Source of the DNA: Nostoc sp. FACHB-280
Lineage (GTDB): Bacteria > Cyanobacteriota > Cyanobacteriia > Cyanobacteriales > Nostocaceae
Length of the DNA: 64,000 nt
Assembly (NCBI RefSeq): GCF_014697615.1
Contig: NZ_JACJSD010000022.1
Location: forward strand, 1 to 64,000
Reading direction: 5' to 3'
Of this stretch, positions 8,670 through 54,332 are shown piece after piece (the first letter of the stretch is position 1; every line of letters starts with the position of its first letter). Made by a program: the position numbers and the translations under genes. Under the pieces are notes generated by a model. The model saw nothing but the letters and a program-made list of their open reading frames with translations. It made no database searches and was not told the origin of the DNA.

Positions 8670-8819
8670 AGGACTTACGCATCAAAATTTTCTGTGGGGA
8701 TTGGGTGTGAGGGTGAAAGGGGATGGGGTGTAAGGGTTTTGAATACTTACACCCTTACACCCTCATACCCCTGCACCCTGTTCTAAAACCTTATTTTTTC
8801 GTTTTTTTGCGTAAGTCCT
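8670..8819. repeat. MITE-like element, family A, intact copy (ends AGGACTTACGCA)
   Basis: Perfect 12-base inverted ends, AGGACTTACGCA (8670-8681) and TGCGTAAGTCCT (8808-8819), enclose a 150-base non-coding element. The interior is G-rich on one side (GGGTGTGAGGGTG) and C-rich on the other (CACCCTTACACCCTC), so the whole element can fold into a long hairpin. A related copy with the same interior starts at 12144, and a copy with the same ends but a different interior lies at 52003-52120. It sits in the upstream region of the ADP-ribosylglycohydrolase gene. Confidence 0.75.
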
Positions 8820-12143: not shown

Positions 12144-12326
12144 AGGACTTACGCACCAAAATTGTCTGTGGAGATTGGGTGTAAGGGTGAAGGGGTATGA
12201 GGTGTAGGTATTCAAAACTCCTACCCCCCTACGGTGAAGTCAAAATTCAAAAGAAATAGAATTTTTGAATTTTGACTTGATTTTGCCCCTAAACCCTGCT
12301 CTAAAAACTTCATTTTTCGTTTCTTT
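12144..12326. repeat. MITE-like element, family A, degenerate copy after sir
   Basis: The left end AGGACTTACGCA (12144-12155) is intact and the first 60 or so bases match the copy at 8670. The right part (CTAAAAACTTCATTTTTCG) still matches, but the TGCGTAAGTCCT end is lost. A 42-base hairpin (12237-12278) occupies the middle in place of the C-rich arm. The element begins two bases downstream of the sir stop and could now serve as its 3' end. Confidence 0.65.
12237..12278. repeat. 16-bp perfect inverted repeat inside the degenerate MITE
   Basis: AAGTCAAAATTCAAAA (12237-12252) and TTTTGAATTTTGACTT (12263-12278) pair perfectly around a 10-base loop. AT-rich and without a T tract. It is absent from the intact copy at 8670-8819, so it was probably inserted or grew secondarily. 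It could stabilise the sir transcript end. Confidence 0.7.
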
Positions 12327-49105: not shown

Positions 49106-51874
49106 TCACTCAGTAATTAGTAAGGCTACGGGGAAGTGGGAGAGGGTTTGGGAGATGGGGAGAGTGTCTCCAGGTTGTAGGGTTTGGTGGGTGAGGAGGT
49201 TTTGCCAAGTTTTGGCGGGGAGTTTTAGGTGTGTATCTTGCCATACTGACTCGCCTAGTGGGGGTTGTCCGGGTGGGGTGAGGCTGGTGAGGAAGCGGGG
49301 GACAATGGCGATCGCGGTTTGCTTGCCGTGTTGGCGGGCAAAGGCGATGATATGGTTGGCGTGAGTTCCGTGGACTTCTAGTGGTTGGTATTCGCCGTTT
49401 TGGAATAAGGAGAGATATTTTGTTCTGGCTTTGAGTGCTTGCAGTGTTAAAAACAGTTTGATTCTACCGTCGGTTTTCTGAGTTAGTAGTTCGGGAATGC
49501 AGTCGAGAATATCTGTTTTGATTTGTGCTTGGATGGTACTCAAATAACTACGTCGCAATTCAAAATCTACGGGACGGCGGTTATCGGGATCAACTAAGCT
49601 GAAATCCCACAGTTCTGTTCCTTGGTAGAAGTCGGGAACTCCAGGTGCAGTAATTTTAAGAAGGGTTTGAGAAAGAGAATTAAATATGCCATATTCGGCA
49701 ATTTTTTCTTGAAAGGGACGGAACTTATCTAAAAATTCCCGTGATAAGTTGGGGTCTAGTATTTTCTGTACAAAGGTTGTACAAGCTGCTTCGTATTCGT
49801 TATCGGGGCGTAACCATGCGGTGTGAACTTTCGCTTCCCGGATGGCTTTAATCATGTATTCTTGCACTCGTTCCACGAAGGAGGCTTGTTCATGTTCTGC
49901 AAAGGGAAATGCGCCAACTAGGGTTTGATAGAGGAAGTATTCATCGTTGCGATCGACTAAGCTACGATGTGATTGATTAAGTTCACTCCAATGATTTACT
50001 TGTTGTTCCCATTCTTGAGGAATTTCTGACAACACATTTAACCTCGCTCTCACATCTTCGCCGCGCTTGGTATCATGGGTGGCGGTGGCGTTCATGGTAT
50101 GCGGCCAGTTTGCTTGGTGCTGGTGGTTAAAGTTATGAAATTGCTCAATATTAATTCCAAAATGGCTGGGGTTTCCGCCGACTTCATTCAGTGAAATTAG
50201 ACGGTTGTAAACATATAAAGTAGTATCTTCTACACCTTTAGCCATGAGTGGCCCAGTATATTGCTGCATTCGCAAAACAAAATAAATCCACTGTTCTTTT
50301 TCTGTTTGGCTGAGAGATTCATCAAACTGCAACAGCAAGACTTTTTCTAAAAAGTTCATTTCATGTTGCAACAGAGGTACTTGTTTTCTCGCTGTGTTAA
50401 TTACTTGTTGAATGCAGGCTTTATCTGTGTCGGAAATTGCATCGGGAGTAATATAAGTACGGTAGATGGGGAATAATGTCAGAAGTTCTGCGATCGCTCG
50501 TTTCAAACCATTCAATGTAAAATCATTGCCATAGCGATATTTGCTGGCAATATTCTTCAGCAAACTAGCTAAATTATCCACATCACCCGCTAAATTCTTT
50601 TCTAATATGAGATGCTTTTTCTCTTTAACCAGTGATGGATAATTGACCCTTGCACCGATAAATGAATGGTAAATTTTATTAAATACAGCTTGATTTTGTG
50701 CTTGACAAAATACACCATTGACATAATTCAAAAAGTCATATCCCGAAGTACCTTGAATCTGCCAATTATTTGGTAAACCTTCTGTAAGTTCTAAAATCTT
50801 TTCCACTGTAATATAAACATCACCCATTTTTTCGCGCAGTCTTTCTAAATACTGCGTTGGGTTATATAGTCCATCAATATGATCAATTCTTAAGCCAGTA
50901 AATACACCGTCCTCTACCAGCTTATGAATCAAACTATGAGTGTTGTTAAACACGCGCATTTCTTCAACTTTCACTGAGATGAGTTCATTAACAGTAAAGA
51001 AACGGCGATAGTTCATTTCCTCTGCGCCAACTTTCCAGAAGGCGAGACGATAAAACTGGTCGTTGAGTAAGTCATCGAGTAAGTTAAAACTTTCCGAATT
51101 ACCAGGTTCACCATTAAAACTTTTTAGGTTTTCGTCAATGAATTCCCGGATATCACCATTAGTGCTGTAGAGTTCCCAAATCAAACCTTTGATAAAAGCA
51201 ATTTGGTCTTGACGCTGTTTACCAGTAACTTCCGAAGGTACACTTTTGAGAACGTAGAGAACGCCTAAAAGTTTAATAAATTCAGGATGATTTCTCCCCA
51301 GTGTGCGGGTGAGTTTACCAAGATTGTAAGTCAGAAATTTGCTATAAGACTCTAACCGCAATGGTAATTTTAAGCTGTAATAGTTAACAGTTAAACCATT
51401 CTGCTCATATTGAATTTGAATATCTCCCTTTTCTAAAGCTTCACCATAAAAATCTCCTAATAGTGGTGCAAGAATGCGCTCTTGGCTATTAGCAAAAGGC
51501 GAGTTCCAACAAACATCAAAATAATCGGTATAACTCGAATCTACACCATGTTCTAACACATCCATTAAGTAGGGATTTTCGCTACTATAAGCCATGTGAT
51601 TCGGCACAATATCTTGTAGCCAACCCATCCCCAAAGCTTGTAATTCTGCCACTAAAGCTGCAAAATCGTCCGTAGTTCCCAATTGCGGATTTAACTGTGC
51701 AGCATCCACCACATCATAACCATGTGTACTCCCAGTTCTCGCCTTAAAAATTGGCGAAGCATACAAATCAGAAATGCCTAAATCTGATAAATAAGATGCG
51801 ATCGCTCTAGCATCCTCAAAGCCAAACTGGGGTGTAAACTGAATTCTATAAGTTACTTTTGGGATTCGCATCAT
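49106..51874 (-). CDS. treY: Malto-oligosyltrehalose synthase, 922 aa
   Basis: GH13 enzyme that isomerises the reducing-end glucose of maltooligosaccharides to a trehalose unit. Typical blocks: RIPKVTYRIQFTPQFGFEDA at the start, SDLYASPIFKARTGSTHGYDVVD, QDIVPNHMAYSSENPY, GLRIDHIDGLYNP with the catalytic Asp, YITVEKILELTEGLP-type Glu block, and TMNATATHDTKRGEDVRARL. The length suits the family. The ATG at 51872-51874 (or the next codon) is preferred; the frame stays open to 51949 but that part is encoded by a dispersed repeat. treZ lies 321 bases upstream across nested MITEs, treH downstream. Confidence 0.95.
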   Translation of the reverse strand: MMRIPKVTYRIQFTPQFGFEDARAIASYLSDLGISDLYASPIFKARTGSTHGYDVVDAAQLNPQLGTTDDFAALVAELQALGMGWLQDIVPNHMAYSSENPYLMDVLEHGVDSSYTDYFDVCWNSPFANSQERILAPLLGDFYGEALEKGDIQIQYEQNGLTVNYYSLKLPLRLESYSKFLTYNLGKLTRTLGRNHPEFIKLLGVLYVLKSVPSEVTGKQRQDQIAFIKGLIWELYSTNGDIREFIDENLKSFNGEPGNSESFNLLDDLLNDQFYRLAFWKVGAEEMNYRRFFTVNELISVKVEEMRVFNNTHSLIHKLVEDGVFTGLRIDHIDGLYNPTQYLERLREKMGDVYITVEKILELTEGLPNNWQIQGTSGYDFLNYVNGVFCQAQNQAVFNKIYHSFIGARVNYPSLVKEKKHLILEKNLAGDVDNLASLLKNIASKYRYGNDFTLNGLKRAIAELLTLFPIYRTYITPDAISDTDKACIQQVINTARKQVPLLQHEMNFLEKVLLLQFDESLSQTEKEQWIYFVLRMQQYTGPLMAKGVEDTTLYVYNRLISLNEVGGNPSHFGINIEQFHNFNHQHQANWPHTMNATATHDTKRGEDVRARLNVLSEIPQEWEQQVNHWSELNQSHRSLVDRNDEYFLYQTLVGAFPFAEHEQASFVERVQEYMIKAIREAKVHTAWLRPDNEYEAACTTFVQKILDPNLSREFLDKFRPFQEKIAEYGIFNSLSQTLLKITAPGVPDFYQGTELWDFSLVDPDNRRPVDFELRRSYLSTIQAQIKTDILDCIPELLTQKTDGRIKLFLTLQALKARTKYLSLFQNGEYQPLEVHGTHANHIIAFARQHGKQTAIAIVPRFLTSLTPPGQPPLGESVWQDTHLKLPAKTWQNLLTHQTLQPGDTLPISQTLSHFPVALLITE

Positions 51875-51963
51875 ATTTTTACTTGATATAAATAGGTTGA
51901 AAAAGAGGTTCAGGGGAAAACACTCTGCGCCCCTCCGCGTTGACTTCACGTAACTCTGCGTTA

Positions 51964-52211
51964 TAGTAGTCCTAAATCATTTGTAAAATTTCTATATCTT
52001 TTAGGACTTACGCAAAATATCTCTCAAACTCTCATTTCTCCGTGAACTCTGCGCCTCTGTGGTACCCTGCGGGAAGCCGCTTGCGCGTCTACGATTTTCC
52101 GTAGCTTGTGCGTAAGTCCTGTCTTTTTCTTCTTTCTTCCCTTTGCGTCCTTGGCGTTCTTGGCGGTTCGTTTCCATATCTATGTTTTTCACAACTCAGA
52201 TAGGATTGCTA
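51964..52211. repeat. MITE-like element, family B, interrupted copy
   Basis: The left end TAGTAGTCCTAAATC (51964-51978) differs at two of 15 bases from the copy at 858, and the right end TTTTTCACAACTCAGATAGG ... ATTGCTA (to 52211) is identical to it. Removing the family A insert (52003-52120) leaves 130 bases, close to the 121 of the other copy. The right end overlaps the treZ stop codon and last three codons. Confidence 0.75.
52003..52120. repeat. MITE-like element, family A, inserted in family B copy
   Basis: Perfect ends AGGACTTACGCA (52003-52014) and TGCGTAAGTCCT (52109-52120) bound a 118-base element. The interior (CTCTGCGCCTCTGTGG, CGTAGCTTG) differs from copies 8670 and 12144, so the ends are shared by at least two interior types. 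It lies in the treZ-treY intergenic region. Confidence 0.75.
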
Positions 52212-54019
52212 TACAAAACTAAACTCATAGCCGCCAACACAACCTCCTCCCCCACAGAAAGTTTGTCAGGCGCTTGATAACCTGAGTCTAATAACTTCCG
52301 CGCACTTTGCTGAATTGGTAAACTCACCGCCACCGATGACGAATTAAAATTCATCGCAAATACCACCTCACCCGACTCGCACCAACGCCGGACAACAACT
52401 AATTTTTTCTCTTCATCACTAGTTGCTGCAATACTGTCGCGGTCATAATTCAATAACGCAGGATGAGTTTGGCGTAAATGAATTAACTGACGATACCAAT
52501 TCCATAAAACCTTGTGTTTTCCTTGGTGACGCAATTCCCAGTTAAGTTTACACCGCAGAAATGTCTGTGCAGATTCGGGATCTGGTGGATCTTCCGCATA
52601 GTGGAACGCCTCAAACTCTTGCTTACGTCCAGCACGCACAGCTTGAATCAACTCAGGGTCAGAGTGACTGACAAAATAGATGAAGGGTGCAGTTTCGCCA
52701 TATTCTTCACCCATGAATAGTAACGGTAAGTAAGGTGATAACAATACAGCACCAGCCGCTAATTTCAAACCTGCAAAGGAAATTCGCTCAGATAAGCGTT
52801 CCCCCTTCATTTGATTACCAATTTGATCGTGATTTTGAATACAAACTGAAAACTGAGATAATGGGCGATCGCGGCAAGATATCCCATGAAAACGCTTACG
52901 GTGGGGTGCATATCGCCAATCATAGACAAAAGTATCTTGGTAAGCTTTAGCTAAATCGGCACACTTACCGAAATCTTGATAATACCCTTGGCGATCGCCT
53001 GTTAACAATGTATGCAATGCGTGGTGGAAATCATCACTCCACTGTGCATCAATTCCATATCCTCCCAATTCTGGCGGACGTACAATTTGCGGGTTATTCA
53101 AGTCACTTTCTGCAATTAAATAACGTTTCCATGTCCCCCCTTGGCAAAAGTTATGCACAACTTCCGCCAATTCCCATAAAACATGCTTTGCACCCAAATC
53201 ATAAATTGCTTGAATTGCATCCAGCCGCAAAGCATCTATATGAAAGTCTCCCAACCAATACAGCGCATTTTGAATAAAATAATTTCGCACACCTTGGCTA
53301 TAAGAATCATCGAAATTCATCGCGTTGCCCCAAGGTGTCTTATAAGTTTTAGTAAAATAGGGCGCAAATTGACCCATATAATTACCTTCTGGGCCAAAGT
53401 GGTTATAAACCACATCCAGCACTACAGCAATGCCATTTTCGTGACAAGCATTCACAAACCGTTTGAAATCGGCTGGACTACCGTAGGAATTTTGTACCGC
53501 ATACAGGTAAACGCCATCATATCCCCAGTTACGATATGCCAAATCAGGCTGAATATGATCATCGCCCGGAAATTGGGCAATGGGCATAATTTCAATCGCG
53601 TTAATTCCTAACTCCCGCAGTTCTGGTAAACGGGGAATAATTGCAGCAAAGGTTCCTTCTGGGGTGAATGTCCCGACATGAAGTTCATAAAAAATCATCG
53701 ATTCTAAGGGAATACCCGTCCAGGTTGTATCTGTCCAATCAAAATGATGATCTACAACTTGAGAAGCACCGTGAACTCCTTGGGGTTGAAACTGCGAAGC
53801 TGGGTCAGCAAAAGCTTCTTGCTCATTTAATTTATATCGATACAGTGTACCTGGATACACATCATTGATTTTTACTTGCCAGTATCCTTCTGCTTGCGGT
53901 TTTAGCGGAATTAACTGCGGTTCTGGCGTTAAAATCTCTATCTCAACACTGTTTAATGTGGGAGACCAAACAGTAAACTCACACTCGCCGTTACCTAAGT
54001 AGTGAGCGCCAATTTTCAC
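52196..54019 (-). CDS. treZ: Malto-oligosyltrehalose trehalohydrolase, 607 aa
   Basis: GH13 enzyme releasing trehalose from the product of TreY. An N-terminal CBM48-like domain (KIGAHYLGNGECEFTVWSP) precedes the barrel: YELHVGTFTPEGTF, VVLDVVYNHFGPEGNY, HIDALRLDAIQAI (nucleophile about Asp267), YLIAESDLN (acid/base about Glu304) and IQNHDQIGN. The start is GTG at 54017-54019 with GGAGG seven bases upstream; the frame is open to a TTG at 54064 but lacks a site. The final residues Asn-Pro-Ile and the TGA stop fall in the end of a family B MITE. First gene of the treZYH cluster. Confidence 0.94.
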   Translation of the reverse strand: MKIGAHYLGNGECEFTVWSPTLNSVEIEILTPEPQLIPLKPQAEGYWQVKINDVYPGTLYRYKLNEQEAFADPASQFQPQGVHGASQVVDHHFDWTDTTWTGIPLESMIFYELHVGTFTPEGTFAAIIPRLPELRELGINAIEIMPIAQFPGDDHIQPDLAYRNWGYDGVYLYAVQNSYGSPADFKRFVNACHENGIAVVLDVVYNHFGPEGNYMGQFAPYFTKTYKTPWGNAMNFDDSYSQGVRNYFIQNALYWLGDFHIDALRLDAIQAIYDLGAKHVLWELAEVVHNFCQGGTWKRYLIAESDLNNPQIVRPPELGGYGIDAQWSDDFHHALHTLLTGDRQGYYQDFGKCADLAKAYQDTFVYDWRYAPHRKRFHGISCRDRPLSQFSVCIQNHDQIGNQMKGERLSERISFAGLKLAAGAVLLSPYLPLLFMGEEYGETAPFIYFVSHSDPELIQAVRAGRKQEFEAFHYAEDPPDPESAQTFLRCKLNWELRHQGKHKVLWNWYRQLIHLRQTHPALLNYDRDSIAATSDEEKKLVVVRRWCESGEVVFAMNFNSSSVAVSLPIQQSARKLLDSGYQAPDKLSVGEEVVLAAMSLVLYSNPI

Positions 54020-54332
54020 ACAGCATCCTCCGCTTAAATGATGTTCTGGATAAGTGTTTGACAACTGTAAATGTCATCAAGTCAACATTTTTCAGTTATC
54101 TGCCAGATAGCATCATGGTATTTTTCTCAGTTATTCCACCAGTGCCAAAAGATATATTTGGTAGTAAGCATTTGGAAATAAAAAGACCAGCCTCCCACAG
54201 CTGGTCTATTAAATGTTTTTCGCGTTGTCTTCTCAATAGAGTTAAAACCCGATTGCGCGTTCCCAAAATGCAACGGGCAACTTTTCTTAACAATATTGTA
54301 ACAGCCAACACAGTTTTTTCTTAAAAATTCAC
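54020..54332 (-). ncRNA. Possible structured leader or small RNA upstream of treZ
   Basis: On the minus strand this region has a hairpin CCCGTTGC/GCAATCGGG (54277-54248, one bulge) followed by a strong stem AGACCAGC/GCTGGTCT (54207-54184) with a T-rich tail (TTTTTATTT). The second looks like an intrinsic terminator about 165 bases before the treZ start. Either a small RNA begins downstream of the rqcH terminator and ends here, or this is an attenuator in the treZ leader. I recognise no known RNA family. Confidence 0.35.
54184..54207 (-). terminator. Terminator-like hairpin upstream of treZ
   Basis: Read on the minus strand, AGACCAGC pairs with GCTGGTCT around an 8-base loop and is followed by TTTTATTT. 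Its place before treZ rather than directly after rqcH is unusual, because rqcH already has a terminator at 54333-54364. Confidence 0.75.

Follow-up and report, generated by a model that had tools for sequence, protein, structure and literature searches.

Two unrelated MITE families have very probably inserted in succession at the 3' end of treZ in Nostoc sp. FACHB-280: an element of family B first, and an element of family A into it afterwards. The window, by which we mean the whole 64,000-nucleotide stretch of DNA that was analysed, belongs to a genome of 7.64 Mb in 113 contigs (G000). The site holds three layers, not two, with a 29-bp repeat lying within A and A within B. The features of the window on which the argument draws are as follows.

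49106–51874, minus strand: treY, the downstream gene (TIGR02401, 991 bits), its start set by alignment with relatives.
52196–54064, minus strand: treZ (TIGR02402, 792 bits), whose last four codons, stop codon and third base of a Tyr codon lie within B (52196–52211).
51964–52211, no strand assigned: element B, a TA-flanked MITE whose ends are of IS630 type, interrupted by A; identified from its A-free ortholog in the relative G010 and from IS630-type partners.
52002–52121, no strand assigned: element A, a MITE consisting of T, 118 bp and G, with the ends of an IS701_2-type IS; identified from its inverted ends and from partner IS in G005 and G095.
51962–51963, no strand assigned: TA beside B, first copy.
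52212–52213, no strand assigned: TA beside B, second copy, which is also the first two bases of the TreZ Tyr codon.
51997–52001, no strand assigned: TCTTT, first copy of the A target duplication, present as a single copy in G010.
52122–52126, no strand assigned: TCTTT, second copy of the A target duplication, identified in the same way.
52063–52091, plus strand: 29-bp dispersed repeat within A, replacing two bases of the A copies that lack it; placed by alignment of A copies.
858–978, no strand assigned: second B copy in the window, uninterrupted.

A nest of one MITE-like element inside another had been proposed from the letters of the window, and it is borne out: both end sequences are dispersed through the genome, and TCTTT stands on either side of A. 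The inverted ends of A, AGGACTTACGCA, are exact at 52003–52014 and 52109–52120. The sequence-only reading, which took A to be complete at 52003–52120, was right about these ends, but the boundaries shift outward by one base to 52002–52121 (T...G) because the flanking repeat TCTTT sits at 51997–52001 and 52122–52126. Removing the insert had been said to restore a B of normal size. Once A and one TCTTT are taken out, B at the nest measures 123 bp, which is the length of the A-free B of G010, and 12 of 26 candidate B pairs are 111–123 bp long. The nest had also been placed in the treZ–treY gap; the site is right, but B is not limited to the gap and makes up the 3' end of treZ.

The order of the two insertions can be read from the relatives. 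Using the end of TreZ as query, we searched 11 genomes of the genus and found treZ in ten of them (none in G006). B is present in two of these ten loci and A within B in one. G010 has B at the same site, with A absent, a single TCTTT and flanks close to those of the window; B is absent from the other eight relatives (G001–G005 and G007–G009). B therefore came first and A second, as the nesting had been taken to indicate. In the proposed course of events, B, with its IS630-type IS ends, would have inserted at a TA at the treZ 3' end before the window's genome and G010 split, and A, with IS701_2-type IS ends, would later have entered B in the lineage of the window, duplicating TCTTT. The transposases of such IS may have moved A and B in trans, presumably by cut-and-paste with staggered cuts.

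Family A has been mobile within the genus, in keeping with the mobility claimed for it. G008 (L224) carries an independent A elsewhere in the treZ–treY gap, flanked by CTATT and bearing its own 29-bp repeat at the other of the repeat's two usual places, and G001 has CTATT once at the place of this A, an empty site. Occupied and empty A sites can thus be paired between relatives at the nest (empty in G010) and at the other place (occupied in G008, empty in G001). Comparison of the gap between strains had been set as a test beforehand, and it yielded A-free sites as well as the target duplication.

Short elements with direct repeats can be lost precisely, and an ancestor with A in B might in this way have given rise to G010 by exact loss of A, one TCTTT being kept. 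We consider this very unlikely: such a loss requires exact removal of A together with one repeat, whereas gain of A requires one ordinary insertion, and the nesting itself would still mean that B preceded A.

It is likewise very unlikely that the stretch is a functional unit conserved between the two genes, such as an RNA structure or a spacer, in which the repeats are incidental. Such a unit would fit the RNA hairpin formed by A alone, which is more stable than shuffled sequences on both strands (z −3.3 and −5.1), but this hairpin follows from A's inverted ends. The whole 271-nt stretch folds only weakly better than its shuffles (z −1.71; 10 of 200 folded equally well), no Rfam match was found at E up to 1 in 51500–52700, and no terminator-like site was found at the nest. 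One promoter-like match lies on the plus strand across the left end of B, where shuffles give a mean of 0.6. The arrangement is also not conserved at tre, and the empty sites contradict such a unit. B is present in two of the ten genus loci, in one of them with A inside, and the A end, the B end and the middle of the 29-bp repeat (each at ≤1 mismatch) were absent from the 55 scannable gaps of 80 further treZ loci. Together with the ten genus loci, 65 gaps were scanned and three were positive (window, G008 and G010), the scanned gaps being partly non-independent (L061 and L062 agree in their gaps with G007 and G009, respectively, and look as if they came from the same strains). Least credible of all is a composite, with A already in B, that entered tre as one unit: the 248-bp composite might conceivably be mobilised by the ends of B, but B stands alone at the same site in G010, and the nest in the window is the sole full-length composite match in the genome.

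The successive insertion of B and A leaves one detail of the B site to be accounted for. When positions 52196–52213 of the window are set against the B-free G001 (L226) and G008 (L224), 12 bp, TATGAGGTTTTT, are missing; B stands between two TA whose starts are separated by 12 bp in those two genomes. Simple TA insertion of B does not explain the missing 12 bp. The difference could reflect either a deletion before or after insertion or the joining of B ends to different TA.

At the nest, the left end of B is TAGTAGTCCTA (51964–51974), which has two changes relative to TAGCAATCCTA, and the right end, TAGGATTGCTA (52201–52211), is exact; TA stands outside each. Allowing ≤1 mismatch, the window contains five matches to the B end, three of them exact, against 1.30 expected, and five to the A end against 0.20 expected from shuffles. 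From the window alone, the B end is therefore less striking than the A end, and it is the whole-genome counts that settle the reality of the repeat: the genome holds 82 exact B ends (control 3) and 118 exact A ends (0 for the pattern read backwards). Of the 26 candidate B pairs, 23 are flanked by TA at both ends; three of the rows, all at L191, pair the ends of a single place in different ways. B is short and geneless, has terminal inverted repeats and a TA target duplication, and occurs in many copies, as expected of a MITE. The other copy that had been reported at 858–978 is real, its left neighbour being TG and not TA. Elsewhere in the genome there are further B copies unsplit by A, for example on C28, C31 and C47.

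Two observations on other B sequences may be added. By eye, the treZ-side end of the window's B (52184–52211), CACAACTCAGATAGG, resembles another B subfamily, and the G010 ortholog (L225) has CACGACTCATTTAGG; conversion by a dispersed copy possibly lies behind this end. At L197 and L198, another insert of about 56 bp (GGTGAAGCAGTCC...CCCGGAGGG) is found within the core of two B copies.

For family A, pairing of ends across 100 fetched loci of the genome and the window gave 53 candidate pairs, 27 of which are flanked, at a distance of one base from the 12-bp ends, by perfect direct repeats of 5 bp. Six rows were dropped from the repeat count and from the alignment of A copies, five that overlap another pairing at the same ends and L145, whose removal was poorly justified; 27 of the remaining 47 pairs have the perfect repeat and 20 do not, and as L145 also lacks it, the figure with L145 kept, 27 of 48, is the fairer one. 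Randomly re-paired flanks gave a mean of 0.70 perfect 5-bp repeats and a maximum of 5 in 2,000 trials, and other settings (offsets 0–3, lengths 5–8) at five or more bases never yielded more than two pairs. The bases outside the 12-bp ends of the 47 pairs are T/G in 33, T/A in eight, C/G in three and other in three, the orientation of the pairs having been set partly by those same bases. A is 120 bp long at the nest and 93 bp (91 + 2) in its basic form. It too has the properties of a MITE, being short, geneless and present in many copies with terminal inverted repeats and a 5-bp target duplication.

Long A forms were excluded from the alignment. One of the dropped rows, the 190-bp L020, is possibly an A that encloses another A; by eye, L020 (C19:131222-131377) and L034 (C19:127469-127640) are A copies within older, decayed A copies. 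At 8670–8819 the window itself holds a second A form, about 150 bp long, whose interior differs (GGGTGTGAGGGTG...), and a single A end at 12144–12155 may belong to this longer form.

Both families have matching IS in relatives. A-type ends bound an IS of 1194 bp in G005 (L205, with one mismatch in each end) and three of 1138 bp each in G095 (L303, L304 and L305, with exact ends and identical predicted transposases). In these four IS the 12-bp ends are bordered by T and A, and the 5-bp repeats are GAAGC, GATTA, ACTAT and AATTA, respectively. The transposases of L205 and L303 score 376 and 385 bits against NCBIfam NF049921 IS701_2, exceeding the cut-off of 250, and 81 and 85 bits against the general IS701 model, below its cut-off of 150. 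The IS701 family is described as 1400–1550 bp long with a target duplication of almost always exactly 4 bp (PMC2266710), whereas the partner of A spans 1138–1194 bp between 12-bp ends and has 5-bp repeats. For this reason, we call it IS701_2-type and not a member of IS701. A and its IS have about 13 terminal bases in common, and a 13-base end, TAGGACTTACGCA, is present in 96 of 99 genomes from the taxonomic family (control matches 0 or 1 per strand). The bases next to the 12-bp ends are T...G in most A MITEs and T...A in the full-length IS of G095 (L303–L305).

IS with B ends were found in three other genera (L286, L287 and L289; 1123, 1127 and 1148 bp from TA to TA), and L287 has the same 23 terminal bases at its left end as the B at 858–978. 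The partner has two reading frames. L286 matches Pfam DDE_3 at 50.8 bits (cut-off 28.6), and NCBIfam IS630 is the best model for each frame at scores below its cut-off of 100: the L286 frames, when scanned separately, reach 94 and 65 bits, and a piece of L287 reaches 47. The TA beside the ends, the DDE_3 domain and the two reading frames are IS630-like; B itself differs in being geneless, and the separate frames of its partner lie under the IS630 cut-off. Two further candidates for the B side were set aside: the frame of L214, considered as a B-linked IS630 transposase, has no family match, and L235 fits as a full partner at one end only. In the window's genome, a search for an intact transposase returned contig-end fragments only (C23/C98 with A ends, C19/C82 with B ends); identical fragments at contig ends are as expected of collapsed IS copies.

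The innermost layer, the 29-bp repeat, has 67 matches at ≤2 mismatches in the window's genome (reversed control 0) and is matched in 11 of 11 genus genomes at the same threshold. It is found in A, in B and in other places. In three A subfamilies it occupies one and the same place, and each subfamily also has copies without it; other A copies hold it at a second position, and L015 carries it at both. The copies that bear on this recurrence are L001, L012, L004, L037, L008, L024, L015 and others. The pattern suggests that the repeat inserted repeatedly at a preferred sequence. An attempt to date the repeat from A copies gave no answer, the nearest copies being mixed for its presence: outside the repeat, the copy closest to that of the window is L024 (96%), which lacks it, followed by L008 (93%) and L018 (91%) with it and L052 (93%) without.

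A and B copies have the ends of unrelated IS, yet a 32-bp core is common to both. In the pair compared, L162 (an A copy of 91 bp) and the B at 858–978, 30 of 32 interior bases are identical; the core score of this pair is 54, and 2,000 shuffles reach at most 33. The nested A and the nested B carry more divergent variants of the core:

52141–52172, plus strand: core region of the nested B, carrying a variant of this core.
52045–52063, plus strand: core region of the nested A, a more divergent variant broken by the 29-bp repeat; placed by the A alignment.

A 13-base piece of the core, TTTGCGGTTCGTT, has 136 matches at ≤1 mismatch in the genome, 61 of them exact (control 33). Inspection covered 21 of these exact sites, distributed over 20 loci (L263–L282) that lie mostly outside the loci already fetched. 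At ten of the 21, the flanking 110 bases to left and right hold neither an A end (≤3 mismatches) nor a B end (≤2 mismatches). To the eye, the interior resembles that of A at L268, L270 and L273, which are perhaps decayed A copies, but not at the other seven (L264, L266, L269, L276, L278 and two in L279). The core sites of L263 and L265 have one weak B end only. Because some core copies have neither A nor B ends, the core can be read as a passenger in its own right, one that exists without either pair of ends, sits between the ends of two unrelated IS and serves as a preferred landing place for the 29-bp repeat. We put this forward as a tentative reading that is somewhat doubtful on balance. 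If it is true, MITEs of this lineage would be modular, the same cargo being carried between exchangeable ends, and would not have arisen simply by deletion from a single IS. A core common to two MITE families with unrelated ends makes the origin of MITE interiors testable.

A and B resemble the MITEs described for cyanobacteria (PMC3542288; Anabaena PCC 7120 MITEs and Nezha via PMC10969869): they are short, multi-copy and non-coding with terminal inverted repeats, and they are likewise mostly intergenic and sometimes within genes (PMC3542288, PMC10969869). The MITEs of Anabaena sp. 90 are reported as type II, their genome having yielded no IS whose ends match (PMC3542288); here, by contrast, both families have such IS in relatives, and the nest is ordered by sister genomes. 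The 29-bp repeat is like the Nostoc SDR as described in citing papers (PMC3116915, PMC2884548) in being very short, dispersed and found inside other repeats, a likeness by description only. Among the matches listed, literature searches by the end, core and 29-bp sequences and by words, covering mostly non-subscription literature, returned no description of this nest, and the sequence text searches listed none on cyanobacterial repeats by title. Such elements are ordinary, and it is the order of events that is unusually well documented here. The site offers a dated series, from no element to B to A in B, with every stage kept in a sequenced relative, and the likely transposase type is known for both the A layer and the B layer.

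The nest also bears on the trehalose genes themselves, as a MITE end serves here as the end of a metabolic gene. Close to its 3' end, treZ passes into B within a Tyr codon, and B provides the last four TreZ residues and the stop codon, which read Ser-Asn-Pro-Ile-stop in the window and Ser-Asn-Pro-Lys-stop in G010. TreZ of the B-free G001 and G008 ends in Glu-Val-Phe-stop, and the ends in six B-free relatives (G001, G002, G003, G007, G008 and G009) are LYEVF, LYEV or LYEVEV; G004 and G005 have a more distant TreZ, with 57–58% identity. Rickettsia palindromic elements similarly give in-frame codons to host proteins (PMC10969869); B differs in giving only four terminal residues and a stop, in one gene. 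The TIGR02402 match stops at TreZ residue 580 of 622, so the B-derived change falls outside the modelled enzyme. With treZ and treY both looking intact, the effect of A and B on the trehalose genes would most likely be none or small, and an effect on treY is possible. The two genes are 321 bp apart in the window, and 75, 188, 96 and 49 bp apart in the named relatives without B that have the closest TreZ (L061, L062, L063 and L084, respectively).
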